A DNA stretch of 46,442 bases. Source: a virus. The position numbers and the translations under genes are program-made. Of the stretch, positions 11,461 through 46,442 are shown piece after piece (position 1 is the first letter of the stretch; the number at the start of each line of letters is the position of its first letter). The stretch is taken from IMG/VR virus record IMGVR_UViG_3300025011_000077, positions 1 through 46,442 of that record; one strand, 5' to 3'. The notes below the pieces were generated by a model. The model was not told where the DNA came from and did no database searches. It worked only from the letters and a program-made list of their open reading frames with translations.

Positions 11461-11577
11461 CATACATACCTCCTATATATTTTTTGATACCCCTCACATA
11501 TTCAGTTGTCACAGACCACCGGGCTAGGTACGAGTCACCCGGCACCCTCGGTACCGCTCTCCCTCAACCCTGAAATA

Positions 11578-12950: not shown

Positions 12951-13023
12951 ATACCCATACCTCCTGCATCTAGCACCGGGATCTCCAGCACCCGTCTGGT
13001 GTGTGTCCCCTGCTGATGTTATT

Positions 13024-13052
13024 ATTATATCACGGACATAGGAATAAGTCAA
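13024..13052 (-). promoter_or_regulatory. Early-type promoter for paralogue 3
   Basis: Minus strand TTGACT, spacer of 17 ending TGTCCGTGA, then TATAAT. Most upstream member of the minus-strand early block. Confidence 0.88.
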
Positions 13053-26625: not shown

Positions 26626-27498
26626 ATGAACGATCAAGACACCTATGAAAAAGCTATGTGTAGGGTATGTGGGTACAGCACCCCACACCTATCCAGTCAT
26701 CTAAGGAGCATCCATGGATTAAGATCCCCTGAATACAAAGCACAATATCCAGGAGCACCCATAGTATGTAAGCAACGTAGCGAGCAATTTGCCAATAATA
26801 ATCCTAATAAAACAGAGAATTTTAGGAAGAGAATGAAAGAAACCATGAGTAAGGAAAATAACCCTAATTATGGAACCCAACATACGGAAGAGTGGAAGAA
26901 AAATATGTCTGAAAGGATGATGGGTGAAAATCATCCTATGTATGGTAGACACCAATCCGAGGAAGTTAAGAAGAATATGAGTATCCGCAACAAAGGAGAG
27001 GGTAATCCTATGTATGGTAAGGCAGGATTTGGAGGTATGCACCATACCGAGGAGACTAAACAGAAAATGGCTGAGTCTAGATCAGAATTTATGTCTAAGT
27101 TTTACACTAAGAGAACAACTATAGAAGAATGGTGCACCAATCAACTCCTTATTCAGAAAGTGAAGTTCAGTGAACAACAAAGGGTAGGTAAGTTTTTATA
27201 TGATTTTGAGGTTATGACTAGTGAGGGAATAAAGTACATAGAAGTAAACGGAGATTTCTGGCATTCAAACCCTAATATTTATGATTTGCGTAACTTGACC
27301 ACCACTCAAATAACTAATATATGTAGGGATAAGCTAAAACTGGAAAAGGTGGGAAGAGAAAATCTACTGATACTTTGGGAGCAGGATATAAAGAAAAGAC
27401 CTTATATGTGTATATTCTTGATAAAGGCATTTATTTTAGGGGACACCAGAGTATTGCATAGTTATGACTTTAAGAGGAGGTCTATACATGTCGATTAA
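26626..27498 (+). CDS. Homing endonuclease with MucR-like zinc finger, NUMOD3 repeats and Vsr-like nuclease
   Basis: A 290-residue protein. Residues 12-30 (CRVCGYSTPHLSSHLRSIH) form a MucR-type zinc finger. Residues about 75-155 carry at least three NUMOD3-type motifs (NPNYGTQHTEEWKKNMS, NPMYGKAGFGGMHHTEE). Residues about 165-275 (FLYDFEV, YIEVNGDFWHSNP, ILWEQDI) match the very-short-patch-repair (EDxHD) nuclease fold known from the phage homing enzyme I-Bth0305I. It probably cuts terminase-region DNA of competing phages and spreads itself. It overlaps terL by 11 bases, as free-standing homing genes often do. Confidence 0.85.
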   Translation: MNDQDTYEKAMCRVCGYSTPHLSSHLRSIHGLRSPEYKAQYPGAPIVCKQRSEQFANNNPNKTENFRKRMKETMSKENNPNYGTQHTEEWKKNMSERMMGENHPMYGRHQSEEVKKNMSIRNKGEGNPMYGKAGFGGMHHTEETKQKMAESRSEFMSKFYTKRTTIEEWCTNQLLIQKVKFSEQQRVGKFLYDFEVMTSEGIKYIEVNGDFWHSNPNIYDLRNLTTTQITNICRDKLKLEKVGRENLLILWEQDIKKRPYMCIFLIKAFILGDTRVLHSYDFKRRSIHVD

Positions 27499-29141: not shown

Positions 29142-30884
29142 GTGGAATTACTTGTGGTAGCGAGATCATCTGAAGATAGGCATCATGTAATCCTTAGATG
29201 GGGAAAGCATTATGGGGTAGTAGAAAAAGGAATGAAACCATCTCAGGTAAAATGGGGTAAAAAGGATATACTGGATAGGTCTCTTACCGGAAAGAACTTT
29301 GAAGAGGTAGAACCCCCAGTTGTATTCCGACCAGTGGTTAAAAAATCATTGAGCTCGGGATTAACTTTGTATTTAGACGTGCGCAAATCTCACCAACTCA
29401 ATTTTGGTCACCTAGTTAAACGAGCGGTTCAGGTTAAAGGTAAGAATGGTAAACAATTTACCCGCATGCAGTGGGTAAACCCCGGACAGGCCAGTACTGG
29501 CCATGGTGTGAGAAGAATTAACAATTCTAAGGACTGGCTAAATGCTGTGGGTGATGGAGTTATGAAACACCCCATGCACAAACAAGCTATGGAAGATCAG
29601 GGAGTTGACATGGATAAGCATCATATTTATGGTGAGCATCCCGCATTTTTTGTACCTGAGACCGCTGAATCAAGGAAAGGTAAAACTGGAAGAGATTTCA
29701 TCCCCCACAAGGACAGTGAATTTAGTAAGAGATACAATGAGAACCAGGAATCTATCAGTAGTGAGACAAAATCAGATGTAGATAAAGGTATAATACGTAC
29801 AGAAGTATCTGAGTTACTGAGAGACTACAAAGCAGGTAAATCTCTTGCCCCTGTTTTTGATTCTATGGAGTCAATGTTCTTAAAAGGGACCACTCGTCAG
29901 AAATACCTTAGTTTGAGAGAAGGCATGAGTAAACACTGGAAAACCTTACACCCCCAAATTGAGGAATCTATATCTTCTAGTAATAGTTCTGAGTATGCAA
30001 AAAAGATTCAGCTATCAACCTTAGACCGTATATCCAAAATGACAGATTCAGGTAAGGATGGTGTTAATAAAGACCTTGCTGTGATGGCATCTCATCCCGC
30101 TGTTGCTAAGTACGCGGTGGATAAACTTTTAGGCAGGGAAAGAGCTAATGTTCTCAGAGCAAATATGAGGGATGGAAATCTAACCATCAATACTAGTCAA
30201 AAGCATCTTGACAGTATACTGAAAGATGGTTACGTAGCAAATACCTCAGAAGATTATGTAAGGTCTAGGGGTACCAAAAGGGACATCCGTGAATATAATA
30301 AAATAGCAGATAGCAATGTGGATATGGATGCTAAACTAGAGATGATACAAGACATCATTGATAGTGATCCTAGCGAAGAGCGAAATAGCCCTTCAAACAT
30401 TATGTGGCGTAACATATCAGACAGAGCCGAAGCTGAATATTTGTGTATGGGATTAGATATAGGAGATAATATAAAGCCTAATTACCTGGCTTTTAATCCC
30501 GATGGCAGTTCTCTAGGGGCCTGTACATCTTACGGAGATGGAACCTCCATCAAACTAAACTCTTCGATATTGAAAGACTGTACGGGTAATATGTCTGACA
30601 CTTTCTATAAAACCCGGCCAATAGCTAAAATACATGATATGGATCACTTAAAGGACATATACATGCTGCGCATGATGCATGATGCCCAAGGTGGTGGAGA
30701 TATTTTTAAGGACATCCCCGAATGGGCTAATGGTGATCACATGTGGCCTGAAGATGTACCAGTTGAGTTGCACTACCACAAACCACGAATAGACCCTGAG
30801 CTTATTAGTGTCAATGGCAACAGACCAGATAGTTATGAGGACTACGAGGAAGAGGATGAAGGCAAATATGATAATTGGGGGTAG
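29142..30884 (+). CDS. Tagged protein 1: N-domain, VQVKGKNG tag and ADP-ribosyltransferase-like C-terminus
   Basis: 580 residues from GTG 29142 (GGGGGTG upstream). Residues 1-85 form domain N (HVILRWGKHYGVVEKGM, PPVVFRPV, LTLYLDV), shared with the stand-alone product at 30890. Residues 91-114 hold the tag (VQVKGKNGKQF then TRMQWV), encoded by DNA identical to that at 31802-31864. Residues about 345-560 (TINTSQKHLDSILKDG, then AEAEYLCMG, YLAFNPDGSSLGA, YGDGTSIKL, ending VELHYHKP) resemble the ADP-ribosyltransferase-like/DUF3626-type domains of phage head-associated proteins. It follows terL closely, in the place usual for portal or minor head genes. Enzyme activity is inferred. Confidence 0.62.
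   Translation: MELLVVARSSEDRHHVILRWGKHYGVVEKGMKPSQVKWGKKDILDRSLTGKNFEEVEPPVVFRPVVKKSLSSGLTLYLDVRKSHQLNFGHLVKRAVQVKGKNGKQFTRMQWVNPGQASTGHGVRRINNSKDWLNAVGDGVMKHPMHKQAMEDQGVDMDKHHIYGEHPAFFVPETAESRKGKTGRDFIPHKDSEFSKRYNENQESISSETKSDVDKGIIRTEVSELLRDYKAGKSLAPVFDSMESMFLKGTTRQKYLSLREGMSKHWKTLHPQIEESISSSNSSEYAKKIQLSTLDRISKMTDSGKDGVNKDLAVMASHPAVAKYAVDKLLGRERANVLRANMRDGNLTINTSQKHLDSILKDGYVANTSEDYVRSRGTKRDIREYNKIADSNVDMDAKLEMIQDIIDSDPSEERNSPSNIMWRNISDRAEAEYLCMGLDIGDNIKPNYLAFNPDGSSLGACTSYGDGTSIKLNSSILKDCTGNMSDTFYKTRPIAKIHDMDHLKDIYMLRMMHDAQGGGDIFKDIPEWANGDHMWPEDVPVELHYHKPRIDPELISVNGNRPDSYEDYEEEDEGKYDNWG
29415..29477 (+). repeat. 63-bp exact repeat encoding the tag, copy 1
   Basis: Identical base for base to 31802-31864. 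It encodes 21 residues centred on VQVKGKNGKQF and TRMQWV. The sequence on either side differs between the two genes. Confidence 0.9.
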
Positions 30885-30889
30885 ACCGA

Positions 30890-31138
30890 ATGCCTGGACA
30901 AAAGCAATGCTATGTAGTAGCTGAGAATAAACCCAATAGAAGAATAATTGTCAAACTTGGGGACCAATACGCTTGCATCAAAAAGGGGCAATCTGTTAGT
31001 CAATACCACTGGAGAGATCATAAGTTACTATCTAGCATGGTTCTGAAGGGTGGCTATGAAGAATTGGACATTCCCGTATTATTTAGACCCTTTAATGACT
31101 ATATAAACAAGTCTATGACATTATATATTGATAACTAG
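30890..31138 (+). CDS. Stand-alone copy of domain N from tagged protein 1
   Basis: An 82-residue protein. ATG 30890 follows GGGGGT; a TTG at 30875 lies in the preceding gene. IIVKLGDQYACIKKGQS, then IPVLFRPFNDYINKSMTLYI, parallels residues 1-80 of the product at 29142. The chain stops at the very point where the other protein goes on into the tag. It may bind the same partner. Confidence 0.62.
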   Translation: MPGQKQCYVVAENKPNRRIIVKLGDQYACIKKGQSVSQYHWRDHKLLSSMVLKGGYEELDIPVLFRPFNDYINKSMTLYIDN

Positions 31139-31150
31139 GGGGTGAGACAT

Positions 31151-33772
31151 ATGGAACTTTTAATAGATTTAATAAAAGCTGGAAAAGCACACCTGCCAGA
31201 GGGTGCAGAGCGTTGTGCCTACAAAGTTCCCAACGAATATGGTGTGATTTACATACCCATCAACAGATTGAAGCAGATCTATCAGACTGATAAGGCCACC
31301 AACCAGAACAAGGTGAAATCTCTAGTGAATAAGATGAAATCACATGCCACCATTGACCCAGTTGAGATAGGCTATAATTATGATATTCAGAACGGACATC
31401 ATAGATACGTAGCTAGTGATGAACTGGGGTACACACATGTGCCTTGTGTTGTGGTTGGAACAGATGATGCTAAAATAAGAAAAGCTAAAGAGATGTACCG
31501 TTCAGTGTGGAAAAGTGATTCGGTCAGCATACAAACCATGCTAAAGCAAAATTTGCACAGCGAAGACGATGCTATACAGGACTACAGAAAATTAATAATT
31601 AATCTGACTGATCCCAAAATACGTCCAGTCATTGAAGAGATACTAAAGGATGAAGAGAACCACCACCATAACTTAGAGCAAGTGCTCTTATATGTTGAAG
31701 GGGACAAAGAAGCTTTATCAGAGAGCAAATTAAAGAAAAGTGAATTACTGTCCTTGGTGCTAGATTTAAGCAAGGCACATATGCTCCACAAGGATAAGCT
31801 GGTTAAACGAGCGGTTCAGGTTAAAGGTAAGAATGGTAAACAATTTACCCGCATGCAGTGGGTAGATCCTAAAACTGGCCAACCTGCCTCTAAAGGGCAC
31901 AAAGTTGAAGAGGACACGCAGCCTAGGCACCGTGCAGTGGAACAAACTCAAACTAATAAAGAGATTGATTGGGATGATGACTCCATATGGGGTGGGGATG
32001 AGGACAATGAGGAGGTAAGAGATAGAGATGAGGAGGAAGACGAGGATACCGGAGAAGAGCCTGTAAAAAGTAAAGATAGGCAAGAACCTGAGGAGGATGA
32101 TGCTGAAGATGAGGATGAGTTCCCATCTGTAGAGGAACTGGTGCGCAGGAAAAAGGCTAAACAAAATCCTAAGGAAGCTAAGGTTAAAACTAATACTAAC
32201 AATAGCAATAAAGGCGGTCAAACCACCTTTGTATCTGATGTTGATCATTTCGAGAATGTCATAAAGAAGAAATACACTCATGATCACATTATGGACCAAG
32301 CTGATAAACAAGGTATCACATGGCAGAGATTGGACCAATATGGGGAAATGTTCTCTCCGCCTATGAATTGGATGAGAGCTGCAAGTGCCATAAAAAACCT
32401 CATACGTAATGGTGGTGTCTTTGAAATAGAAGACAATGCCAAAGATACAGATAAGGCCATGCAAGAGAAAAGTAAAAGCACCGTGGAGAAACACTTCTTG
32501 GCACTGCTGAATAAGCACGAAGGAAATAAGCAGGAGTTTATGGAGTGGGCTCGTAATAATGATTACGGTTGGAAAGAGAAAGACGATCCAGTAATGAATT
32601 GGATGTATTTTAAAAAGCACATTATGACTTTGTTATCTCAAGGCAAAATGGTAGGTGGGGTAAGGACCCAACAGAAGGATTTGATGTCTAAAACCAATGC
32701 TATAGTTACCCCTGACATAAAAGAGCAAGTCAAGCTACTGGGACAAAATTACGATAGAAATGATATCATGTCTAGGGCTGAAGCATATGGGATAAATTGG
32801 ACAAAAGTAGATAAAAAGGGAAATGACCTCCCCCCAGCTATGGTATGGATGAGATGCTCCTCTGAAATACAGCTATGGCTGGCTCAAGGTCACGAATTTC
32901 TTATGGATGGGAAAAATCCTAACAAGGGAGTGACATCTGCTTCAGCAAAAATAGAAGATGTTAAGATAGGAAAGCATCAATCCTATGCTCTTGACTTCGC
33001 AGGGAGAAACAGCAAAAATTATGAAGAAAAGGCTCGCAAATGGGCTATAAAATCTATCATGATAGACAACCCTAAAATGACTGATCTAGATGCTGATACC
33101 TTCTATAAGAAATTTGTTTCCAATGCTTCCGAGGCACGTATTATGATACACATAGACCCACTTGAGAAATTACCTGGGGGCATAACCACACTGGACCAAT
33201 TTAGCTCAGATGGGCACCTACGCAACCCCTTTCAGATAGGCAATATAGACGCAGAGGCACAAGAGATTGCAGAACGCGAGTTATATGGGGAAGGGTTTGA
33301 TGAGGCCCCACCAAGGGAACGTCCTATTTATGGTAGTATGGATTTATTTAACCAGGGGTTGGACTCTTCAGGATATGGTAGCATAGCTCTGGTGCTAAAG
33401 AATGATGTTAAGAGTAGATCCTCTGTTACTATGGGAGATTCAAATAGCTTGCCATGGGAGACTAATGGTAAATTAACCAGACATGCCACTTCTTCTCACC
33501 AAGCCCTAATTGACAGATGGACTAGTAAATGGGCAAATCCTAAGAAGGCAGATGCTGTACGTAAGAGAGCTATGGAATCTATTGCCAGTGGCACTAGGAA
33601 TAATGACCCAGGTTTTTTTGAAACACAAATACTAGGTGGGGTGGATTTTAAAAGGGACGTGGATCATGTGCTGGTTCCACAGGATTGGAGTACTAATAAG
33701 GACCACAGGGATAAGCATGAAAAGGTTAAGGCTTTTGCTAAACTTCACGGATTACAGGTTAAGTATGAATAA
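31151..33772 (+). CDS. Tagged protein 2: ParB-like, ferritin-like, tag, repeats and ADP-ribosyltransferase-like domain
   Basis: About 873 residues from ATG 31151 (GGGGGTGAG upstream). Domains in order: ParB/Srx-like (15-115; NGHHRYVASDELGYTHVP at 81); short ferritin-like helical pair (139-175; EEILKDEENHHHNLEQ); tag (217-240); very acidic linker (about 265-320); three or more helical repeats (360-600; WQRLDQYGEMFSPPMNWM, WTKVDKKGNDLPPAMVWM); ART/DUF3626-like domain (660-840; RPIYGSMD, GYGSIALVLKNDVKSR, FFETQILGGVDF). The order resembles modular effectors. A virion-packaged role is inferred from position and tag. Confidence 0.65.
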   Translation: MELLIDLIKAGKAHLPEGAERCAYKVPNEYGVIYIPINRLKQIYQTDKATNQNKVKSLVNKMKSHATIDPVEIGYNYDIQNGHHRYVASDELGYTHVPCVVVGTDDAKIRKAKEMYRSVWKSDSVSIQTMLKQNLHSEDDAIQDYRKLIINLTDPKIRPVIEEILKDEENHHHNLEQVLLYVEGDKEALSESKLKKSELLSLVLDLSKAHMLHKDKLVKRAVQVKGKNGKQFTRMQWVDPKTGQPASKGHKVEEDTQPRHRAVEQTQTNKEIDWDDDSIWGGDEDNEEVRDRDEEEDEDTGEEPVKSKDRQEPEEDDAEDEDEFPSVEELVRRKKAKQNPKEAKVKTNTNNSNKGGQTTFVSDVDHFENVIKKKYTHDHIMDQADKQGITWQRLDQYGEMFSPPMNWMRAASAIKNLIRNGGVFEIEDNAKDTDKAMQEKSKSTVEKHFLALLNKHEGNKQEFMEWARNNDYGWKEKDDPVMNWMYFKKHIMTLLSQGKMVGGVRTQQKDLMSKTNAIVTPDIKEQVKLLGQNYDRNDIMSRAEAYGINWTKVDKKGNDLPPAMVWMRCSSEIQLWLAQGHEFLMDGKNPNKGVTSASAKIEDVKIGKHQSYALDFAGRNSKNYEEKARKWAIKSIMIDNPKMTDLDADTFYKKFVSNASEARIMIHIDPLEKLPGGITTLDQFSSDGHLRNPFQIGNIDAEAQEIAERELYGEGFDEAPPRERPIYGSMDLFNQGLDSSGYGSIALVLKNDVKSRSSVTMGDSNSLPWETNGKLTRHATSSHQALIDRWTSKWANPKKADAVRKRAMESIASGTRNNDPGFFETQILGGVDFKRDVDHVLVPQDWSTNKDHRDKHEKVKAFAKLHGLQVKYE
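31802..31864 (+). repeat. 63-bp exact repeat encoding the tag, copy 2
   Basis: Identical to 29415-29477. The copies in the products at 42628 and 45931 are similar only at protein level. Confidence 0.9.
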
Positions 33773-33785
33773 GGGGTGAGTATAA

Positions 33786-34070
33786 TTGAGCATAGTTATT
33801 AAAGCTATGAAATTGACTGAAGACCCCCATTCCACCAAACTGCTTTACGAAAAGGATGGGGTGCTATTTATACGTAACGGATCAGATGGGTTTACAAAGG
33901 GGGTTAAATCTCAGTCCTCTTTGGTTTCACTCAAAAATAAGTGGGGATTTAGAGACGTAGAAAACTCCCCTACCTTTGGCAGTGGTGTGGAAATACAAAG
34001 AGCTTTACACTTATTTGATCTCAAGAGTGATGGGAATATAGTGTATTCTGGAAGGAATATTCATTTCTAG
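33786..34070 (+). CDS. Small protein, possible divergent domain-N relative
   Basis: A 94-residue protein starting MSIVIKAMKLTEDPHSTKLL, probably with a TTG start after GGGGTGAG. LLYEKDGVLFIRNGSDGF and the hydrophobic spacing recall domain N of the product at 29142, but similarity is weak. It is packed between tagged protein 2 and the next gene. Function unknown. Confidence 0.55.
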   Translation: MSIVIKAMKLTEDPHSTKLLYEKDGVLFIRNGSDGFTKGVKSQSSLVSLKNKWGFRDVENSPTFGSGVEIQRALHLFDLKSDGNIVYSGRNIHF

Positions 34071-34081
34071 GGGGCGGTAAA

Positions 34082-34543
34082 ATGTCAGGAGTGCATCAAT
34101 ACGCTGTACTAAGGGGAGCTTTATCAAGGGAGGGTTTATTGGATCGGGGTAAGCAAAATGGTGTGTTGTGGGATGAGTCTAGTCATGAGGGGGTCAATTG
34201 GCTAAGATACAGCCATGCTCTGGTTTCCCACTTAGACGCTGATAAGCCTTTTCATACTGACGACGTAGATTTAAATACGTTAAAGCAAATGCATAACCAC
34301 TACACACAACTAAGAAAATTACACATTAAAACTATGATACCACATGTGAAAGATGCCCTAAAGCATTTGCAGGACAAGGATGTTAACACCCATAAACATC
34401 CAAATGAATACTTGTCAGAAGTGTATCAACATCTGAATGAAAATGGTGGCCACCATTGGGCTGATAAGTCTAGAGCTCTAAATCATATGAACACCAGAAT
34501 AAAATACTTGGGAAATAGAATAGAGGCTCAGGGTCAAAACTAA
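34082..34543 (+). CDS. His-rich helical phage protein
   Basis: A 153-residue protein with about twenty His, many in helices (MHNHYTQLRKLHIKTMIPHV, VYQHLNENGGHHWADKS). It could bind metal, but no known motif is seen. It starts after GGGGCGG and is followed by a terminator. Function unknown. Confidence 0.6.
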   Translation: MSGVHQYAVLRGALSREGLLDRGKQNGVLWDESSHEGVNWLRYSHALVSHLDADKPFHTDDVDLNTLKQMHNHYTQLRKLHIKTMIPHVKDALKHLQDKDVNTHKHPNEYLSEVYQHLNENGGHHWADKSRALNHMNTRIKYLGNRIEAQGQN

Positions 34544-34566
34544 TTACATGAAACTAGGATTTAAAG

Positions 34567-34593
34567 AGCAGAACTTTGCGTTCTGCCTTTTTT
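34567..34593 (+). terminator. Intrinsic terminator ending the 27.5-34.5 kb unit
   Basis: AGCAGAAC with GTTCTGC, a short loop, then CTTTTTTC. An upstream open frame for the sigma gene crosses it, which argues for the later start at 34614. Confidence 0.88.
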
Positions 34594-34613
34594 CTTTGTT
34601 GAGGGGGTTAGAA

Positions 34614-35780
34614 ATGGGAGAAGAAGTTGAAGTAACCCAAGAATTATTAGATAAGGCTAGGAATCATGATGAGATTTCTAGCAACCTCATATATAAAGGT
34701 TTTTATAAACTGATACATTATCTTTGTAGGAAGTGGGCAGGGAAAATATGGAGCAATGACTACTCAATGCAAGAGGAGTTATTTAGTATCTCTCACGTAG
34801 CATATATGAAAGCTCTTAATTCATTTGACCCCCTTAAAGGTGTAAAGTTTGCCACCTATCTCTCCAGATGTGTAGAAAATGAGATACTGATGTACTACAG
34901 GAAATGGAAAAAGATTAAACATGAGGTATCCTTCGAAACGCCAGTGACCCATAATGCGGAAGGGCATGAGTTGTTCCTGTCAGATCTTTTAGAAAGCAAA
35001 GAAGATGGCTATGATGATTTAGAATTTAGGGAAGGCTTATGGAAAGAGTTTAAAGAGTTCGACTTAGGATCTAAATATGGTAATCTATTAAATCTCTCCA
35101 TAATAGAAGGGAAAACACAGGTAGAGATAAGGGACTCTTTAGGGGTATCCCAGTCTTACGTATCTAGACTTGTTAAGAAGCAAACCATTAAGTTTAAGAA
35201 ACACCTGGAGCAAGTCAACATAATAGAGGGAGGGGATAGAATGCATAAGTCTACATACACGCAAGAACAAAAGGACAGGGTCAAGTACTTACTTGAAAAT
35301 ACCATTATGCTACAGCAAAATATAGCTAAGGAGACTGGGGTGAATCAATCAACGGTGTCTATAATGTCTAGAAAACTAACAAGACCAGAGGGTGCTTTTA
35401 GAACTTCTAAAAAAGAAGAGGTTCTGGATGGAGAAGTGACAACTACTTTTTGGTCTAAGGATCGAGTAGCTGAACATTTTGGAGAAGAGATAGATACTCC
35501 GTCTACAGCAGTTACTCCACCCTTACCTGATGGGGTATTGGAAGCCCCTCTTCACCCATCCCTACAAGAGATGGACACCTCTAGTAAACTAGAGGACACT
35601 CCCACTATACAGGACCGATTAGTACATAAGGACAACTTACCAACAGGTGCTACAATCATAGAGTTAGTGCGGGACGGTTTAGACGCAGACTCACTTGAGT
35701 GGGAGGTACACAACCTAGTGGAGTATCTGAGGAGACTAAAACCCACTACTATTTCAGTAGAACTAAAAATAACATTCTAG
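34614..35780 (+). CDS. Sigma factor resembling sporulation SigK/SigE, with C-terminal extension
   Basis: A 388-residue protein from ATG 34614 (GAGGGGG upstream). Region 2 (LIYKGFYKLIHYLCRKW, then YMKALNSFDPLKGVKFATYL, then RCVENEILMYYRKWKK) has the ENEILM segment typical of SigK/SigE. Region 4 is TQVEIRDSLGVSQSYVSRLV. After about residue 205 an extra helix-turn-helix follows (QQNIAKETGVNQSTVSIMS) and a Pro/Thr-rich tail of about 120 residues. It probably directs host RNA polymerase to late phage genes; an effect on sporulation is possible, as shown for other phage sigma factors. Confidence 0.85.
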   Translation: MGEEVEVTQELLDKARNHDEISSNLIYKGFYKLIHYLCRKWAGKIWSNDYSMQEELFSISHVAYMKALNSFDPLKGVKFATYLSRCVENEILMYYRKWKKIKHEVSFETPVTHNAEGHELFLSDLLESKEDGYDDLEFREGLWKEFKEFDLGSKYGNLLNLSIIEGKTQVEIRDSLGVSQSYVSRLVKKQTIKFKKHLEQVNIIEGGDRMHKSTYTQEQKDRVKYLLENTIMLQQNIAKETGVNQSTVSIMSRKLTRPEGAFRTSKKEEVLDGEVTTTFWSKDRVAEHFGEEIDTPSTAVTPPLPDGVLEAPLHPSLQEMDTSSKLEDTPTIQDRLVHKDNLPTGATIIELVRDGLDADSLEWEVHNLVEYLRRLKPTTISVELKITF

Positions 35781-35795
35781 AGAAATCTCACCTAC

Positions 35796-35830
35796 TTACC
35801 AGGATATTAATTATCCTGGTAATTTTATTT
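35796..35830 (+). terminator. Intrinsic terminator after the sigma gene
   Basis: TTACCAGGATA with TATCCTGGTAA, then TTTTATTTT. Confidence 0.88.
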
Positions 35831-35873
35831 TCTCACCTGCTTTAGATTTTTAAAGGTAAGGAGGCGAGGTCAG

Positions 35874-36758
35874 TTGATCAAGCATTGGGAACATACTGAA
35901 ATCGTGGATGGTGCTACTTTTGAGAGATTTAAGTCATTCAAGGCCCCTGTTTTTCCCAGCGCACCCTTACCTAATAATACTGCGGTATTCATCTCTTGTA
36001 GTGGTAAGAGATTAGAAGGTATATATGATCCCGAATTAAAGTCCATACGTCAATTTAGATACTTAGAAAACCCTCCCCCTAATAGGGATCTAAGATTATA
36101 TTTAGATGCTATATCCAGTCCCCACATTACTATGATAGCTATAGATGGTCTGATGGGAACAGGTAAAACCTCCAATGCTGTAGAAAGTGCTGTAGAGTTT
36201 ATAAATTCTACTCCTTGTGCTAGAGGTGACCTTAATTGCACTAAGGTGGTTATAGCCAAACCATATGTCAATGCTGGAGGGGAAGAATATGGCTTTTTAC
36301 CTGGAGACGCTGATGAGAAACTAGACCCTACACTAACTAATTTCATTCAGTATTTTGACAGATTTAGCACTATTGGATTTAAGAAATTGCGAGAGCTAGG
36401 ACGTGTTAAGGTTTTACCTTTAGGGTTTATACGTGGATTAGATGCCGAGAATATGATTATCCTAGCGGATGAGTGCCAAAATACTAGGGAGCTAATATCC
36501 TTGGCCACTAGAAAGGCTAAGAATAGTAGGATATTTTTTCTAGGGGATACAAGCCCTTTCCAAATAGACCTGCAAGGGGTTGCTCCTAAAAAGAATGGGC
36601 TAACCAATATTATAGATCTATTGTCTGGAGCCCCTTATTTTCAGTATATTGAGCTTAAAACCCTGGAACACATAGTTCGTAGTGACGAAGTGAGAGACAT
36701 AGTTAAGAGGTTATTTGAGAAATACGGGGAAAACCCTCAAGAATGGATAATTCAATAG
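35874..36758 (+). CDS. phoH: PhoH-like ATPase
   Basis: A 294-residue protein with a TTG start after AAGGAGG. Walker A is GLMGTGKT (residues 92-99), FLPGDADEKLDP follows, Walker B is MIILADECQN, and IFFLGDTSPFQIDL and VRSDEVRDIV complete the PhoH pattern. PhoH-family NTPases are common in large phages; RNA helicase or RNase-linked roles are proposed for them. The N-terminal 85 residues are variable. Transcribed apart from the sigma gene because of the terminator between them. Confidence 0.88.
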   Translation: MIKHWEHTEIVDGATFERFKSFKAPVFPSAPLPNNTAVFISCSGKRLEGIYDPELKSIRQFRYLENPPPNRDLRLYLDAISSPHITMIAIDGLMGTGKTSNAVESAVEFINSTPCARGDLNCTKVVIAKPYVNAGGEEYGFLPGDADEKLDPTLTNFIQYFDRFSTIGFKKLRELGRVKVLPLGFIRGLDAENMIILADECQNTRELISLATRKAKNSRIFFLGDTSPFQIDLQGVAPKKNGLTNIIDLLSGAPYFQYIELKTLEHIVRSDEVRDIVKRLFEKYGENPQEWIIQ

Positions 36759-36799
36759 TATGTGCTCATTATAGGTGAGTGAGGTGAGGAGGATAAGAA

Positions 36800-39142: not shown

Positions 39143-39322
39143 GGTTATCTGTAATCATTGATTTCGAGTATGATATCACTTAATTCATAGTGGATGGAAA
39201 AAGCAAACCAACCCCTCAAAATCGCTAGGGGAAAAACTACAAGTCATTACTATTTACCCCCCATAATACTCATGAGACGATTTCAAGGTTTTGGATTCAT
39301 TTAATTGAATGGAGATGAATAG

Positions 39323-39499
39323 ATGACTAAGTTATTGCTAAAAAACGGTTCTCACGCATACACCACACTCACTCCTGAAGAAGTAAGATCCTATCTACAC
39401 GGTGGGATCAAAACCCAAGTCATCAATGGATTTGAAGACCTACCAGGCACCATTCCAGTGTATATCTATGTCCATGCTATAATGCTTATCTACATTTAA
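39323..39499 (+). CDS. 58-residue hypothetical protein
   Basis: MTKLLLKNGSHAYTTLTPEE then a hydrophobic end (IPVYIYVHAIMLIYI) that may enter the membrane. GGAGATGAATAG precedes the ATG. It lies in the 400-base gap between tailspike and RNR, which otherwise holds only a CCCCT/AGGGG hairpin near 39212-39233. Confidence 0.5.
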   Translation: MTKLLLKNGSHAYTTLTPEEVRSYLHGGIKTQVINGFEDLPGTIPVYIYVHAIMLIYI

Positions 39500-39549
39500 T
39501 CCCATACAGAGAGATATAAACACACCCCTACTCTTGGATTAGTGGGGGT

Positions 39550-41907
39550 ATGTTTGTCTTCAAAGGTAAACCATCAAACATTGAGGAGAGTGGATTCATG
39601 CCGTATTCCTTATCACCAGAATTTGTATCAAAATACAGAAATAAAATACCTGATTGGGGTATACTGGGTTGGGAAACCTACAAGAGAACGTACGCACGGT
39701 GGATTCAATCTGAACTTAGGTACGAAGAATGGTGGGAAACCTGTAAAAGAGTTATCGAAGGTAATTTTAATCTAGTGCCCAATGACCCAACATTCACTAT
39801 GGAAGAGATGGAAACAGCCTATGATTTGATGTTCTACTTAATATGGTTACCTCCTGGCAGAGGTTTGTGGGTATCCGGCACTGATTTTGCTAAGAAGCAT
39901 GGGGATGCCCTAGTCAACTGCTGGTTTATAGCATGTAGACCGCAACCTTACCTAAAAGGAGAAGAAGCAAAAGTATCATTCCCTTTTGTGTTTATCTTTG
40001 ACGTATCTATGAAAGGCGGAGGCTCTGGATTTACTGCTCGTAAGAAAGATGTTAGTTTGATACCAGTGGTGAGTAAAAAGATTAACCTCTTTATAAAGTG
40101 TGATGCAAATCACCCAGACTTTAGTATAGATGTCCCCACAGCCAAATTGGATTATGGTGTTGTAGATAAAGTGATGCCAACTAAAGGCATATTAATTGGA
40201 AAAGTGAACGATTCAAGAGAAGGTTGGTGTGATGCTCTAAGTTGGGTAATTGATAGCCATTTTGCTGGGTTGTGGGAAGCCAATTTGGTTATTGATATCA
40301 GTGACGTACGGGGTTACGGTGAAGAGATAAAAGGATTCGGTGGGAAGTCTAGTGGCCCTAGATCACTTGTTGAACTTCTGTGTGGGGTAAATGACCTTCT
40401 CAATCTTAGGCATCAAGGTAACCTGTCTTCAGTAGATGTAGTAGACATAATGAACATGATCGGAAGATGTGTTATTGCTGGTAATGTTCGTAGAACCGCA
40501 CAACTATCTATTGGAAGTACCGATGACATTGGGTTTATGCAAATGAAGGATTTTGGAGTAGTAGATGAAATTTGCCAAACAGACGTTTCAGGTAATTTCA
40601 TCTGGGAAAATGGGAAACGAGTCTTAAAGCCTATGAACATCCTACAGCATCTTTACGAAGAAAAAGAACTTCAGGGGTTAATTTACACCCATCATGCTCA
40701 AAGTAATCACAGGTGGTCCTCAAATAACTCATTAATGGTTACTCCTGAGTTTGATGATTGGAAATTCCTGTCAGATAAGCTAAAGATAAATGGAGAACCT
40801 GGGTACATTAATGAGTACCTCATCCAGAACTATGGGAGACTGATAGATGGGGTACAAGAAGGTATAGATGGGGAGGCTGAAGGATGCAATGCATGCGTTG
40901 AAATAACTCTTGCCAATGGTGAGCCTTGCAACCTGGTGGAGAATTTTCCCCTCAATATTAACAAAGCTAATAAAGACTACAAGAAGGTCTTAGATATCTC
41001 TGCCAGATACGCTTATAGGGTCACTCATTGCATTCATGACTGGGAAGTTTCTAGGGATATTGTGTCTAAGAATAGAAGGATTGGTGCCTCCCTGTCGGGT
41101 ATCCAGGATTGGGTACTTGAAGAATTTGGCGGTGAAGTATTTACTGGGTGGAAAACTACTAATGGTTTGACTCTACCTACTGGAGTAAATCCACTAGTAG
41201 TTAAGGCGTTGGATGACTATTACCATACAATTAAGGAATCCGCCACCAAATACGCTAAAGCACTGGGCACTAACACCCCTATAAAATTTACAACAGTCAA
41301 ACCATCTGGTACAATATCACTGCTAGTGGGTGCCTCACCTGGTATGCACTGGCACTATTTTGGGTATGGGATACGTAGAATGCGATTCCAAATGGATGAC
41401 ATGTTACTTCCAATACTCAAACAAGCAGGTTATTACATGGAACCCGATATAAAGGTGCCAAATACCATGGTTGTTGAGTTCCCTGTAAAAGCATGCACGG
41501 CGGACCATCCTAAATTTAGATCCGCCGGACAAGTACCAATCTATGAGCAATTTGCTTTCCAAGCTTTGTTATCTGAATACTGGGCAGACAACTCTGTCTC
41601 CTGCACCATAACTTTTCAGCCCGAAGAAGCAGATCAGTTAGAGGGACTATTAAGACATTATAGCACTAAGATTAAGGCCACCACATGCTTACCATATAAA
41701 AATCATGGGTATGCTCAGGCACCTTATGAACCTTATTCAGAGAAGGATGGGAAAAGTCCCAAACAGCAATACGAGGAAGCTCTATCCAAAATAACAGATA
41801 GGCCAGTGGATATTTATACTAGGCTTCACCTAAGTGATAATGCTAAGGAAGAGCTGGAAGCAATATTAGGCTCTGACTGTACTACAGGGGCCTGCCCAAT
41901 ACGATAG
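39550..41907 (+). CDS. nrdJ: Adenosylcobalamin-dependent (class II) ribonucleoside-triphosphate reductase
   Basis: A 785-residue protein close to the length of the monomeric Lactobacillus enzyme. First redox Cys in ALVNCWFIACRP (about 125), Gly-rich GGGSGF, catalytic NACVEI (Asn-x-Cys-x-Glu) near 445, TVKPSGTISLLVG-type loop near 585, and C-terminal cysteine pair CTTGACPIR for re-reduction. It makes deoxynucleoside triphosphates without oxygen, using vitamin B12 supplied by the host. No riboswitch or activase gene was seen beside it. ATG 39550 follows GGGGGT. Confidence 0.92.
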   Translation: MFVFKGKPSNIEESGFMPYSLSPEFVSKYRNKIPDWGILGWETYKRTYARWIQSELRYEEWWETCKRVIEGNFNLVPNDPTFTMEEMETAYDLMFYLIWLPPGRGLWVSGTDFAKKHGDALVNCWFIACRPQPYLKGEEAKVSFPFVFIFDVSMKGGGSGFTARKKDVSLIPVVSKKINLFIKCDANHPDFSIDVPTAKLDYGVVDKVMPTKGILIGKVNDSREGWCDALSWVIDSHFAGLWEANLVIDISDVRGYGEEIKGFGGKSSGPRSLVELLCGVNDLLNLRHQGNLSSVDVVDIMNMIGRCVIAGNVRRTAQLSIGSTDDIGFMQMKDFGVVDEICQTDVSGNFIWENGKRVLKPMNILQHLYEEKELQGLIYTHHAQSNHRWSSNNSLMVTPEFDDWKFLSDKLKINGEPGYINEYLIQNYGRLIDGVQEGIDGEAEGCNACVEITLANGEPCNLVENFPLNINKANKDYKKVLDISARYAYRVTHCIHDWEVSRDIVSKNRRIGASLSGIQDWVLEEFGGEVFTGWKTTNGLTLPTGVNPLVVKALDDYYHTIKESATKYAKALGTNTPIKFTTVKPSGTISLLVGASPGMHWHYFGYGIRRMRFQMDDMLLPILKQAGYYMEPDIKVPNTMVVEFPVKACTADHPKFRSAGQVPIYEQFAFQALLSEYWADNSVSCTITFQPEEADQLEGLLRHYSTKIKATTCLPYKNHGYAQAPYEPYSEKDGKSPKQQYEEALSKITDRPVDIYTRLHLSDNAKEELEAILGSDCTTGACPIR

Positions 41908-41917
41908 GAGGTGTATC

Positions 41918-42103
41918 ATGATATTTCCTATATTTTGGATAATACTGGGGTTAGGTCTGGCAATACCCTCCACCTTAGTGCTGGCAATTAACCTCATACT
42001 AAAGGCAGTTAATGGAGACAAATATGAAATAAACTTATTTCAGACGTTCAAGGTATACTCCATCTCCTTGATTGGATGGGCTACAACATTTGGCATAAGA
42101 TGA
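41918..42103 (+). CDS. Small two-span membrane protein
   Basis: A 61-residue protein with spans IFPIFWIILGLGLAIPSTLV and VYSISLIGWATTFGI. It starts after AGGAGGTG, ten bases behind the RNR gene. Function unknown. Confidence 0.6.
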   Translation: MIFPIFWIILGLGLAIPSTLVLAINLILKAVNGDKYEINLFQTFKVYSISLIGWATTFGIR

Positions 42104-42115
42104 GGTGATGACTAC

Positions 42116-42280
42116 ATGTGTGAAGAAAAGTTTGGGGGTTGGTATCCCCCAGTGCAGAAGTTTAGCGATCAGCATCTTAATAAAAAGTCCACCCAAGAGG
42201 AAGAACGGGAAGAGTCCCTTAAGAAAACAATAAACTTTGAGACTCTTCAAAAACGTATGGATTTTAATCTTTTTAAATAG
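42116..42280 (+). CDS. 54-residue hypothetical protein
   Basis: MCEEKFGGWYPPVQKFSDQH then a charged helix (STQEEEREESLKKTINF). TGAGGTGATG precedes the ATG. It fits between its neighbours with gaps of about 12 bases. Function unknown. Confidence 0.52.
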   Translation: MCEEKFGGWYPPVQKFSDQHLNKKSTQEEEREESLKKTINFETLQKRMDFNLFK

Positions 42281-42292
42281 GGGGTAATGTAA

Positions 42293-42544
42293 ATGGGTCA
42301 ATTTCTTGAGCCTAGTGAAAACCATACAACTGGGTATACATTCCTGAAATGGAATGGGAAGTATGGTGATGAGTCTAAATTTGTTATCAGGGACAACAAA
42401 AATGGTAAACAATCTTTGTTTACCCCAGGTCGTGCCCATGATGTAACCTGGGCTAACACAGACTTGGAAAATGATGAGGAATTCTCTGAATGGCAAGAAT
42501 TTGGCAATGAGACTGTGGATGATCTGGATTATGTATCATTCTAG
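42293..42544 (+). CDS. Small acidic hypothetical protein
   Basis: An 83-residue protein (MGQFLEPSENHTTGYTFLKW), strand-rich then acidic (NTDLENDEEFSEWQEFGNE). Start after AGGGGG. Ends before a terminator. Function unknown. Confidence 0.58.
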   Translation: MGQFLEPSENHTTGYTFLKWNGKYGDESKFVIRDNKNGKQSLFTPGRAHDVTWANTDLENDEEFSEWQEFGNETVDDLDYVSF

Positions 42545-42555
42545 GAGTTACTTAA

Positions 42556-42589
42556 AATAAGACTGGGCATATGCCCCGTCTTATTTTTG
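42556..42589 (+). terminator. Intrinsic terminator
   Basis: AATAAGAC with GTCTTATT, inner GGGCAT/ATGCCC, then TTTTG. Confidence 0.85.
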
Positions 42590-42627
42590 TTTTTAGACTT
42601 AATGAATACTGAGGAGGTGCCTTGTTG

Positions 42628-45546
42628 ATGAGGTTTTACATAGATGTAGTAAAAGGGGAAGAAGGTAAGTCTATTGGACCACGTAGACTCCATAAAGAGA
42701 GATTAGTAAGAAGGATGGTTCAGGTAAAGGGGAAAAATGGAGGGACTTACTCCCGCATGCAATGGGTAGACCCACGTGGAGATACGCCCTCACAAAAGCA
42801 CTCTAGTACGGAATCAGATACTAAGGATGCCCATCCCCATGACAGTGACCTAAAAGACCAGGTGCACAAGCTAGTGAGTAAAATGAGCAAAGAGGAGAAA
42901 TATCAGTGGTTAGACAAACATGGCATACAGTGGAAAAGGAATGATCATCCCAACACTGACCACATAGAGGCAGTAAAGGCTTTAAAAAAGTTTCTTAATG
43001 AAAACCCTCATCACCTTGATTTGGAGCACTTATCAAAAAGAGGTGGTAATGAATTAGACATAGAATCTGAGTCTGATAAACTCATGAATCCTGTTGACAA
43101 ATTGATAAACAGAAAGTCTAAGCAAGAGAAGTGGGATCTCATATCTAAATATGGAGTACAGTGGAAGGAAAACTCCAATGATAAAATAAACCAGATGCGT
43201 GCTTTCTCAGCACTGAAGCAATATTTAAAGGAAAATCTGGAATTAGCTGGGTTGTCTAAAGAAGATTTTGATAAGGCTAACGCCATGGGGGATGAAGTTG
43301 AAAGGGTAGGACAAATAGGGGAATTAGTGAAGAAAATGAGCCCCAAATTAAAGTTAGGTCTTGCCAAGCAGTATAAGATAGAGCCTGAACCTACTGGGGA
43401 CAGTAACATTGATAACATAAACCGCACTAAAGCTATTACCAAGTTTTTAAGTGAGGATGCTAAAGAGCTAGAGTTCATTAAGAGTAAGCTAGAAAAACAT
43501 GAATTAAAAAACATGAAGATTTCCGTCAAGGAAATGATGGCTATAATACGAAGACTTGGTAAATTAACCCCTAGAGAGATAAAAGCTTCAAAAGAGGATA
43601 AAGAATGGACATTCAATGACGCATCTATGGCATCTATTAATGAGGATGACAATGGTAATCCTGTTCTATCCATTATAGATGGGGAGCATGGTAAGTGGGA
43701 AGTTAAGGACATACTCCTAAAGGATGTTAAAATCTTTTTAGATGGTTTAGATGAAACTAAGGCTAAGGCTAAAGAAGCCCCTAAGTATGGTAAAGATGAC
43801 ATAGTGGGATTGTTGAAGACAATGTTTGATAAACCACAAGTTAAGAAGATGGCAGAAGGATTATGGATCTTTAGATCTAAAGATGGATCCACGGGTCAAG
43901 TAGAAATAACCTCGGAGGGGGTTACCTTTAGTAGGACTGATAAGGATTGGGAGCGTACCTGGGAACACGATGAGGTAGAAGAAGTCCTAGAGAGGTACCA
44001 CAGACCCCTACATGAAAAGTCAGTGCATGATATAAAAGAAGCTCTGGAAGATGACCCTGAACTATATAAAGGTAGGGTTAAGAAGAGAATAGAGGATAGT
44101 GTACGAGACGATATATTTAAGCATGAGGGCACTTATGGAAGATATGACTCTACAACCCTATATGCGGATGCGACCTTCGGTACTGAGCTATTAAAAACAG
44201 TGGCAAAAGAACATGCTTTTTGGGACCCCAATACTGAAGATTTAGATATACGTTCTGATGAATTTAGTGAATTTATGTACAAATCACTAGTAGATCCTGA
44301 AAAATCTAAGAATGCTATGGATTATGTTGTCACTACTTTTGGGGAAGACAACCCATGGGTATTAAAGGAGTCTGCTAAGAACTGGGAACCCATAGAGCGC
44401 AGAAAAGCTAGAAAAGAGATGTGGTCTAGCCATGGTAGAGTATCCCTAATGTTTCCTAATGATGTCAGAGGACAAATATCCAAACATTTTAACATAGTTA
44501 CGGGTCATCTACCTTTTGATATCATTACCGATACGCTAATAAAACATGGGTTATCAATTAAGGCTCCAACCTCTGATAAAGAGGATAGCCCTATATTCTC
44601 TTACGATTTTAACGATCATCAAATAACTTTACCTTACACTTGCACAGAAGATGCTGATTTCCTTGAAACCGAAGACCCCTATGAATTCCACCCCAGTGTA
44701 TCTATAGATGGAAGGTCTTATAAGGATAGTAGCCTAGGATCAACTTTAACACATGAATTTGGTCATGCTATAGATCATTTCTTTGCTGGCGGAGGGTCTA
44801 ATACCATGACTCATTGGCAGGGTAGTAAAGAGGCTATGAAGTATTTAGGTAAACATAGTAATGCTTTGTTTGAATCTTATTCTAAGTCCTTAGGAGAGGC
44901 AACTGGGAATAGTGGTAGTGGGAGCCCCTGCTCCAAAAGAGGAAACTATTATGTTCATGAGGATAACTTTCTTTCCCCGTATGAGGGGAGAATATACGGC
45001 CCCACCAACAAAGAGACAGGTCTACCAGTTGGCCTTGTAGCTACAAGCTATTCTTCTAATAATGTCATTGATACCACTTTTAAGGGCGCAACAAAACCTC
45101 CCAAAGGTGTAATTTGGGGTTGCGAACACTGGTCAGAAAGTGTATCAAAATATTCCTCTGCTGCTCATCATTATTTTAAATATATGCAGGAGACTAAGGG
45201 ACAAGAAGATTCTAAATCGTTCCCCCAGTGGTGCACAGAAGGATCTAAGAAATACCACGAAGTAAAGGTCAACTTTGACTCTAAGAATGAGTTGGAGAGT
45301 GCCCACCCAGATTTACACAGTGCATTCAGATACAAACACCTAGAGCAACACCACCCTATAATGGCAGATGCAATAGACCACTTATTAAATAGGGGAGATT
45401 TCCCTCCAAAACTAGGCGGTAACGAGGTACGTACTAGGTACACAACTAGAATAGGACCTAACAAAAAGGGGCAAGGCAGAAGGTCCAATGCGCCAACTAT
45501 TATGCCTAAAACAGCCAAATCCTTAACTTTTTATGTAAGGAGCTAA
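42628..45546 (+). CDS. Tagged protein 3: VQVKGKNG tag, helical repeats and zincin-like metalloprotease domain
   Basis: 972 residues. ATG 42628 is preferred over two TTG codons just upstream, with GAGGAGGTG at 8 bases. Tag at about residues 26-49 (MVQVKGKNGGTYSRMQWVDP). Helical repeats at about 75-290 (WLDKHGIQWKRNDHPNTDH, LISKYGVQWKENSNDKINQM) resemble those of the 31151 product. The C-terminal third has LTHEFGHAIDHFF (HEFGH at about 709-713) and WGCEHWSESVSKY, giving the two His and a later Glu expected of a gluzincin. It ends KSLTFYVRS, recalling LTLYLDV before the tag in the 29142 product. A virion protease or injected effector is inferred. Confidence 0.7.
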   Translation: MRFYIDVVKGEEGKSIGPRRLHKERLVRRMVQVKGKNGGTYSRMQWVDPRGDTPSQKHSSTESDTKDAHPHDSDLKDQVHKLVSKMSKEEKYQWLDKHGIQWKRNDHPNTDHIEAVKALKKFLNENPHHLDLEHLSKRGGNELDIESESDKLMNPVDKLINRKSKQEKWDLISKYGVQWKENSNDKINQMRAFSALKQYLKENLELAGLSKEDFDKANAMGDEVERVGQIGELVKKMSPKLKLGLAKQYKIEPEPTGDSNIDNINRTKAITKFLSEDAKELEFIKSKLEKHELKNMKISVKEMMAIIRRLGKLTPREIKASKEDKEWTFNDASMASINEDDNGNPVLSIIDGEHGKWEVKDILLKDVKIFLDGLDETKAKAKEAPKYGKDDIVGLLKTMFDKPQVKKMAEGLWIFRSKDGSTGQVEITSEGVTFSRTDKDWERTWEHDEVEEVLERYHRPLHEKSVHDIKEALEDDPELYKGRVKKRIEDSVRDDIFKHEGTYGRYDSTTLYADATFGTELLKTVAKEHAFWDPNTEDLDIRSDEFSEFMYKSLVDPEKSKNAMDYVVTTFGEDNPWVLKESAKNWEPIERRKARKEMWSSHGRVSLMFPNDVRGQISKHFNIVTGHLPFDIITDTLIKHGLSIKAPTSDKEDSPIFSYDFNDHQITLPYTCTEDADFLETEDPYEFHPSVSIDGRSYKDSSLGSTLTHEFGHAIDHFFAGGGSNTMTHWQGSKEAMKYLGKHSNALFESYSKSLGEATGNSGSGSPCSKRGNYYVHEDNFLSPYEGRIYGPTNKETGLPVGLVATSYSSNNVIDTTFKGATKPPKGVIWGCEHWSESVSKYSSAAHHYFKYMQETKGQEDSKSFPQWCTEGSKKYHEVKVNFDSKNELESAHPDLHSAFRYKHLEQHHPIMADAIDHLLNRGDFPPKLGGNEVRTRYTTRIGPNKKGQGRRSNAPTIMPKTAKSLTFYVRS

Positions 45547-45550
45547 TAAT

Positions 45551-45919
45551 ATGAGGATCAAACTCAGTGGCATAAATGAGGAAACTGGTAAGGCTCAGAA
45601 TGGTTATATATTTTACAATCCTGATACCTCAGAAGTATTGATCACATATCCTGATGACATTGAGAGGAAGAGGTTGTATCGATACCTCACTACACCTCAG
45701 TTACTCACCCATGGCATACCCCTTGGACAGTCTGACTCTGATTTCATAGGCCATCACAAGAAGCCAGATACACCCTCAGACAGCACTGAACTATTGTTGC
45801 ATGCTTTAAGTGACATGCAGGGGTGGATTTCCATAGCAGCGGATTGGAGAAATCCTGTGTATGATGATCATAGTACTTTAAAGTCTTTAAAAGGTGACAC
45901 GATATACAAATTAATATAG
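45551..45919 (+). CDS. Hypothetical phage protein
   Basis: A 122-residue protein (MRIKLSGINEETGKAQNGYI), strand-rich N-terminal half, then a His/Asp-containing middle (IGHHKKPDTPSDS). It starts four bases after tagged protein 3, after AAGGAGC. Function unknown. Confidence 0.6.
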   Translation: MRIKLSGINEETGKAQNGYIFYNPDTSEVLITYPDDIERKRLYRYLTTPQLLTHGIPLGQSDSDFIGHHKKPDTPSDSTELLLHALSDMQGWISIAADWRNPVYDDHSTLKSLKGDTIYKLI

Positions 45920-45930
45920 GGGGTGACTTT

Positions 45931-46442
45931 ATGCCTTGCAATAAAAATAAGTTACTATTTCTAATACCATTAGATGACTTTATATTTAAGGCGGGAGGCG
46001 GTAGGGGAGGACTGATTCAGTCTATTGTAACCTATGTTCGTAATGGCCACACCATCACTAGAAAACAATGGGTAAGAAGTGAGTTTGAGAAGCATGCTAA
46101 AAAGGATGAGGAAGAAAAGCGCGAAACCATACTCCGTATGAAAGAGCGTGAAAAGAATAAGAAGAAAAAGGATCTAACAGAGGCCCAGGAGATAGCTGAT
46201 AGAAAGGGTGCTAGATCCGCTAAAAAGCTTCATCGTGAAGACAAAGAGCGTCAATCTAAAGGGCACCAATCGAAACCTAAGACTAGTATAGTGTCAGATA
46301 GCGAAAGAGAGAAACTGCGTAAGTTAAAAGAGCAGGATCAAGAAAATAAGGTTTCTAGAGAGGAAGAAGAGTCTAAAAGGAAAAAGTTGCAAGATGATAA
46401 TTCTAAAGAGCAGGAGCATCAAAAGGATAAGGAACTCAGGGA
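45931..46442 (+). CDS. Tagged protein 4, N-terminal part, runs off the window
   Basis: ATG 45931 (MPCNKNKLLFLIPLDDFIFK) follows AGGGGGTGAC. The frame is open to the last base, 170 residues. Residues about 33-48 (VTYVRNGHTITRKQWV) line up with the VQVKGKNGKQFTRMQWV tag in spacing and in the final xRxQWV. A long, highly charged helix follows (EEEKRETILRMKEREKNKKK). The C-terminal domain lies outside the window. Confidence 0.65.
   Translation, partial: MPCNKNKLLFLIPLDDFIFKAGGGRGGLIQSIVTYVRNGHTITRKQWVRSEFEKHAKKDEEEKRETILRMKEREKNKKKKDLTEAQEIADRKGARSAKKLHREDKERQSKGHQSKPKTSIVSDSEREKLRKLKEQDQENKVSREEEESKRKKLQDDNSKEQEHQKDKELR

Follow-up and report, generated by a model that had tools for sequence, protein, structure and literature searches.

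The question raised by this locus is why several otherwise different proteins of one phage should share the same short segment. The locus lies in a linear viral record, 46,442 bases long (IMG/VR record IMGVR_UViG_3300025011_000077, positions 1 to 46,442; this whole stretch is referred to as the window), where it is anchored by the neighbouring gene for the terminase large subunit (TerL, 27464..29128, on the + strand, as are the tagged genes, their elements and the small genes between them; phrog_675, E=4.5e-177), which is 68% identical to terminases of the SPO1 group. Three proteins, P0001 (29142..30884, 580 aa), P0002 (31151..33772, 873 aa) and P0003 (42628..45546, 972 aa), carry a segment of 24 residues, the tag, and N-terminal of it a second conserved element, the leader. 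The closest named relative for the tagged genes is Exiguobacterium phage vB_EalM-132 (EalM-132; Herelleviridae, Spounavirinae). On the sequence evidence set out below, we put at about two in three the probability that the leader is a capsid-targeting propeptide, which would be removed by a lysine-cutting prohead protease and would sort exchangeable effectors into the prohead, probably for injection with the DNA.

The tag begins at L91 in P0001 (residues 91-114, 29412..29483), at L217 in P0002 (residues 217-240, 31799..31870) and at L26 in P0003 (residues 26-49, 42703..42774). When the open reading frames (ORFs) of the window were compared for their best ungapped identity over 24 residues, P0001 and P0002 agreed in 23/24 positions, P0002 and P0003 in 18/24, and P0001 and P0003 in 17/24, against a top pair of 10-12/24 in each of five shuffled sets. 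The only other pairs above 11/24 were formed by three small early ORFs (8576, 11059 and 12558) that resemble one another. These values bear out the segment that a preliminary description of this DNA had placed at residues 91, 217 and 26 of the three proteins. A fourth, diverged copy, proposed there for the product of the gene at 45931, is weakly supported by a profile made from the 24-column tag alignment (E=0.1). This gp5.3-like protein (45931..46442, cut by the end of the record; phrog_27686, E=1.8e-24) belongs to a conserved family that adjoins the portal and has the same kind of leader, here ending in IFK↓A at residue 20 (the arrow marks a predicted cut throughout), with the diverged tag at residues 32-50. 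Its homologues in five other records match the tag profile with E-values from 0.004 (SPO1 gp5.3) to 0.02, and the homologue in EalM-132 gave no match in this search.

A search for the tag among 2.9 million viral contigs gave 26 loci, many of them near-copies, while bacterial genome contigs gave 14 pattern matches, none of which was confirmed. A scan of the viral contigs with the whole P0001 protein gave one pattern match, likewise not confirmed. Four tagged genes each are present in EalM-132 and in four IMG/VR records that are mutually close relatives (G001, G002, G003 and G004; tag profile, E 4e-19 to 2e-13). The sole match of the profile in SPO1 is the weak one to gp5.3, and Staphylococcus phage K, LysYB1 and SIOphi gave no match to it. 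The tag occurs in four different PHROG families (27103, 25452, 23829 and 26588), and for this reason it is not the domain of one family; the preliminary description had named a segment always lying within one protein family's domain as the finding that would overturn its proposal, and what is found is a tag on several unrelated protein types.

The tag is basic, with 10 invariant columns across 10 sequences. Tags of different proteins within the same genome have an identity of 0.742, compared with 0.736 for orthologues and 0.718 for the remainder, and tags do not track cargo type. Concerted evolution of the tags inside genomes was considered as well and is unsupported, given that 827 of 5000 permutations gave a value as high. 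In structure models a strand-turn-strand is predicted over the tag of P0001 (92-99/105-112, pLDDT about 35-39) and over that of P0003 (27-34/40-47, pLDDT about 41-47); at a pLDDT of about 35-47 this gives only a hint that the tag may be a beta-hairpin.

The leader is of the type L-Y-I-D-L-x-K and ends in Phi-x-K-[S/A/G], as in MELYIDLSK↓G, MDLYIDLEK↓G and SIPLVIDLSK↓G. Leaders of about 7-20 residues stand at the N-termini of several tagged proteins, and others are internal. In P0001 the leader is LTLYLDVRK↓S (residues 74-82, 29361..29387; predicted cut K82↓S83), with a further Phi-x-K-S site at K68↓S69. P0002 has an N-terminal leader, MELLIDLIK↓A (31151..31177), and an internal one, LSLVLDLSK↓A, between K196↓S and K208↓A (SELLSLVLDLSK; 31739..31774), and P0003 begins with MRFYIDVVK↓G (42628..42654). 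A Phi-x-K-[SAG] site lies 6-16 residues before the tag in 23/23 non-redundant tagged proteins, versus 13% of 30-residue proteome windows (1025 of 7697). This count was built on tag matches with E<=1e-5, which places the gp5.3-like proteins outside it. Copies more than 70% alike upstream were left out, as were tagged ORFs in which the upstream stretch is shorter than 10 residues (the truncated L009/L022 copy), and the scans of EalM-132 and SPO1 began beyond the first 14 kb and 15 kb, respectively. Where the full 30-residue upstream stretch is present, 9/13 proteins show another Phi-x-K-[SAG] site, located either ahead of the leader or elsewhere in that stretch; an internal leader would then have a cut on each side.

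A leader matrix of 9 columns, made from 12 sequences that come from other metagenomic lineages only, was scanned over the ORFs. It ranks gp5.3 first and the ParB protein gp2.12 second in SPO1, gives the top two places to tagged proteins both in EalM-132 and in G001, and in the window it places P0002 (twice) and P0003 at the top, the N-terminal leader of P0002 being the best match. SPO1 gp2.12 (MDLHIDLNK↓S) has the leader and lacks the tag, which makes the two elements separable. The proposal of the preliminary description, a modular cargo set sorted to the head or processed by means of the shared segment, stands in its general form as far as the sequence goes, with the amendment that the signal is more likely to be the leader than the tag.

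The end of the leader is also the motif that marks the candidate substrates of the prohead protease. The scaffold, which has a long acidic stretch, and the prohead protease are the top two ORFs for enrichment in Phi-x-K-[SAG] in EalM-132 (190 ORFs), in SPO1 (175; scaffold gp3.3, protease gp3.2) and in the part of G001 that was covered (73), the uncorrected values including 5.5e-7 and 2.6e-4, and 3.5e-9 and 1.6e-5. Such a pattern would be expected of a protease that acts both on the scaffold and on itself. The capsid protein points to the same rule. The capsid chains of entries 9row, 9rox and 9roz (439 residues), from a phage that we take to be 812, match the 463-residue capsid precursor from the third residue onward, and given their length and register they would start right after ..DVVK; the capsid proteins of SPO1 and EalM-132 have LNK↓A at the corresponding place. 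As a separate observation, the segment that surrounds the predicted cut at the N-terminus of the capsid protein, K-A-L-x-A-G..G-G-x-F-R-x-E-S-L, is also present in the C-terminal part of the protease (E 9e-11 and 2e-8; L016:15759-16520 with L016:17367-18776, and L006:26158-26928 with 27692-29098), as if the protease bore a copy of its own substrate.

Exchange of the enzyme behind the tag is seen at the position directly after TerL. In L030 this gene codes for the tag and DUF3626, and its homologues are P0001, EalM-132 00043 and a truncated protein of L019. The gene after TerL in G001 (L047:4321-6231) still has the tag and a linker homologous to those of L019 (E 5e-17), P0001 (3e-10), L030 (3e-9) and EalM-132 (7e-4), but in its C-terminal part it is a homologue of the GNAT-like type (E 4e-56, L016:8542-9855). 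TerL identities checked at the swap locus are 70% and 67%. The syntenic gene next to TerL keeps tag and linker and swaps its enzyme. Tagged genes stand either beside TerL or just before the genes for portal, protease, scaffold and capsid: two of the four are near the terminase, and the two others, together with the gp5.3-like gene, come immediately ahead of portal, protease and scaffold. The gp5.3-like gene itself directly precedes the portal in EalM-132 and L016.

Elements that resemble the leader are found at protein ends as well. P0003 closes with KTAK↓SLTFYVRS (45508..45543), and 4/5 of the other rows of the zincin alignment also have such a C-terminal element, with the ends KK↓SLGLFVDLGGSKA in two, RK↓SEMELIINLGE and RK↓SEEPKLIIEL; EalM-132 00061 ends in RK↓SEVSLVIELGGKSI. 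The small proteins that precede gp5.3 have Phi-x-K↓S tails in L016, L037 and L040, while neither EalM-132 00062 nor, by the strict rule, the copy in the window (45551..45919, flanked by the zincin gene and the gp5.3-like gene) has one. Several of the terminal K↓S sites, that of P0003 among them, fail Phi-x-K. Within P0002, the sites K9, K121, K196 and K208 bracket the ParB part, a ferritin-like part and the internal leader, and a further site, K111, matches no domain border. The WK↓[SA] site that follows the ParB part is conserved in P0002, L030, EalM-132, L048 and SPO1, and one protein of L030 has three leaders. It is plausible that a polyprotein of the P0002 type would be cut inside the prohead.

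Taken together, these features suggest the following course of events. The tagged proteins would be head cargo of an SPO1-like phage, each docked in the assembling prohead core by its short hydrophobic and acidic leader. The prohead protease would then cut after lysine, at Phi-x-K↓[A/G/S], by the same rule for the scaffold, the capsid protein and itself. With the leader lost, the mature cargo would begin 6-16 residues ahead of the basic tag and stay in the head, to be ejected with the DNA. The tag, being downstream of the predicted cut, would be retained close to the new N-terminus, where, as a guess, it may bind DNA, the scaffold or the portal. Where an internal leader has a site on either side, as in P0002, cutting would divide a multidomain protein into several cargoes, and the enzymes behind the leader and tag would be exchangeable.

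Several points weigh against this interpretation. It is from conservation, gene positions, motif enrichment and cargo swap, all read directly in the sequence, that we infer packaging, cleavage and injection of the tagged proteins. The 23/23 count is one conserved element and not 23 independent events, given that the proteins are related. A motif this short also turns up elsewhere by chance, with 201 sites in the EalM-132 ORFs where 144.5 are expected. Whole tagged proteins are little enriched in it (p=0.045 for the zincin of EalM-132, p=0.02 for the ParB type of G001 and about 0.05-0.4 for the rest), and capsid and portal proteins are not enriched. The SPO1 capsid chain in 9vel is entered at full length and is uninformative on the cut. 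The leader of P0001 ranks 12th among the matrix matches of the window, two of the four EalM-132 leaders are outside the 22 matches listed, 4/13 of the leaders with a full upstream stretch are without a second site, and the C-terminal element is absent from one of the six zincin rows (L038).

The interpretation can also be widened. A two-part delivery module, in which a protease-cleaved leader and a retained hairpin tag may be initial, internal or terminal in a protein and one precursor is cut into several injected effectors, would be a lysine-specific, separately evolved counterpart of the capsid-targeting sequence (CTS) of phage T4, with ADP-ribosyltransferase (ART)-type, peptidase, acetyltransferase-like and ParB cargo. 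We hold this wider proposal tentatively, at somewhat less than even odds. It could be, on the other hand, that the tag itself sorts, as a basic beta-hairpin with the acidic scaffold, the portal or DNA as its binding partner, and that the leader is merely processed or serves as a spacer. The tag is conserved as strongly as the leader, its charge and the strand-turn-strand of the two low-confidence models would suit such a role, and the acidic stretch of the scaffold offers a partner. This possibility is made unlikely by SPO1 gp2.12, by leader-like elements at C-termini distant from any tag, and by the precedent of T4, where targeting resides in the propeptide that is removed.

The tagged proteins may not be head cargo at all, if leader and tag bind a common partner outside the virion (e.g., the terminase or host machinery) late in infection. 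This would suit the two of four tagged genes near the terminase, the annotation of SPO1 gp2.12 as merely ParB-like, and the fact that the virion location of the tagged proteins is deduced. We nonetheless regard it as quite improbable, because the other two tagged genes and the gp5.3-like gene directly precede portal, protease and scaffold, and the leader ends in a motif enriched in the scaffold and the protease. That leader and tag are a relic of recombination, a conserved junction that aids domain shuffling and has no sorting task, would account for the cargo swap and for the similar likeness of tags within genomes and among orthologues, and is hardly credible given a protease-type site in every one of the 23 proteins and conservation of both elements at the protein level across divergent lineages while the adjacent linkers drift.

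The cargo behind the tag falls into four types, namely DUF3626 (P0001), ParB with a weakly ferritin-like part and DUF3626 (P0002), zincin (P0003) and, outside the window, a GNAT-like type. The last label is weak, with Acetyltransf_1 below its cut-off in two of the four proteins scanned (E=0.04 and 0.09) and without a match in the other two. P0002 (phrog_26588, E=9.7e-173) runs from its N-terminal leader through ParB, the ferritin-like part, the second leader, the tag and helical repeats to DUF3626 (residues 663-842, 33137..33676; E=4.7e-8, 32.8 bits against a Pfam cut-off of 27). Residues 122-196 (31514-31738), between two predicted cuts, show a likeness to the EncB family, ferritin-like proteins that encapsulins carry as cargo (E=4.7e-4, well short of the cut-off). 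P0001 consists of a small N-terminal domain, leader, tag and a cargo of DUF3626 type. This assignment comes from its homologue L030:4945-6639 (35% identity), in which DUF3626 is just above the cut-off (2.1e-6), as it also is above the cut-off in L005:13878-16949 and L030:6636-9680; P0001 had no DUF3626 match of its own in the Pfam scan, and its model (mean pLDDT 37.6) is unusable for the fold. DUF3626 is presumably an ADP-ribosyltransferase fold, as in the Salmonella effector SopF. The relevant passages of one report place DUF3626 in SopF and leave ADP-ribosylation unmentioned (PMC6682159). Of the two ART-like domains of the preliminary description, that of P0002 is a DUF3626 match above the cut-off, and the label of P0001 comes from its homologue.

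P0003 (phrog_23829, E=1.4e-68) has leader, tag, helical repeats and a zincin-like C-terminal part. In and near its motif HEFGH (residues 709-713, 44752..44766), H709, E710, H713 and D716 are invariant in six aligned rows, two of which are nearly identical, as are, in an EHWxE-type motif, E833, H834, W835 and E837; HExxH with a further conserved acidic residue is the sequence signature of a zincin metallopeptidase. The zincin label given earlier is supported by these residues and by a sub-threshold Peptidase_M43 match; the model (mean pLDDT 57.4) had no match in the PDB at E<=0.001, and phmmer with the C-terminal part against PDB sequences gave nothing up to E=1.

Some further observations concern the neighbouring genes. 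A small ORF (30890..31138) resembles the N-terminal domain of P0001 (32% identity, E=3e-8) and ends in INK↓SMTLYIDN. This small domain is fused in P0001 (29142-29360), stands alone at 30890-31138 and appears by eye to be joined to the ParB protein in L030:6636 and EalM-132, with L005:13878 as a further locus; the domain therefore shuffles too. P0002, P0003 and the ORF at 34082-34543 contain a helical repeat about 40 residues long (G-I-x-W..N-W-M-R-A..A-I-K), as do the ORFs at 8576-8959, 11059-11463 and 12558-13052; these last three have 22-24/24 residues in common, and the other members were judged by eye. The ORF directly upstream of the terminase (26626-27498) has repeats of the NPMYG type and, by eye, the look of a homing endonuclease.

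SPO1 is a classic Bacillus phage, and its family includes therapy phages. In the open-licence literature we found no capsid-targeting sequence described for this family and no account of proteins injected from the head. If the interpretation is true, cargo could be predicted from a short leader, which would make a set of genes that lack annotation into candidate injected effectors open to testing, would state where the prohead protease cuts, and would offer a handle for loading proteins into SPO1-like heads, as the CTS does for T4.

Among known systems, one with the same gene position is the ORF36 family of Staphylococcus phage K, in which the gene after the terminase of other Herelleviridae subfamilies has a similar-looking motif, VKRxVxRNGKxxxxTxYED. 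Its position-matched counterpart after the terminase of fRuSau02, RS_088 (266 aa; ORF36, 273 aa), is among 78 virion-associated proteins, for which the authors allow carry-over (PMC5618024, in the part concerned). Homology of the tag to this family was considered and is unsupported, so that the likeness serves as a lead only, given a probability of about 1% in hhalign, E-values of about 0.7 or worse with mixed tag profiles, and nothing found by the tag profile in phage K. The gene after the terminase in other Herelleviridae (L049:13715-14536; relatives L052-L057; phage K ORF36) has matches in 527 records and a conserved VKRxVxRNGK..YED motif. In Lysinibacillus phage LysYB1, an 872-aa protein (L050:29094-31712) between a gene that looks MuF-like by eye and the portal has an N-terminal hairpin-like stretch resembling the tag, with no match to the tag profile, and a C-terminal part that matches annotated phage ADP-ribosyltransferases.

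Within SPO1 itself, gp5.3 has the leader and the diverged tag and precedes the portal, while gp2.12 has the leader and the ParB part and follows the terminase, differing in its lack of tag and DUF3626. To our knowledge, neither protein is known as head cargo. The MuF-fused effectors and polyvalent proteins described by Iyer, Burroughs, Aravind and colleagues are alike in placing ART, zincin-like, ParB-type and other enzymes on a head-associated element near head genes (PMC5512222 and PMC9503650, in the passages concerned). P0002, which joins ParB_N and DUF3626 in one polypeptide, is a candidate polyvalent protein. The element differs, given that here it is a leader and a 24-residue tag spread across several separate proteins, and P0001-P0004 gave no match to the MuF domain up to E=1.

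The closest arrangement is that of the T4 CTS, carried by IPI-IPIII and Alt. As the passages on it describe, propeptides of 10-19 residues target internal proteins to the core and are removed by gp21, and Alt is processed at both ends (PMC9026906); counterparts exist in giant phages (PMC5694885, likewise in part). The likeness lies in a short propeptide, its predicted removal by the prohead protease, diverse cargo that includes an ADP-ribosyltransferase-type domain, and processing at either end. The cleavage motif of the T4 type ends in Glu, in giant phages too (PMC9026906, figure legend), whereas the cut predicted here falls after Lys, in Phi-x-K. Moreover, the leader of the SPO1-like phages may be internal and repeated, and it is followed by a second conserved segment, the tag; the likeness of the two systems described here is one of arrangement.

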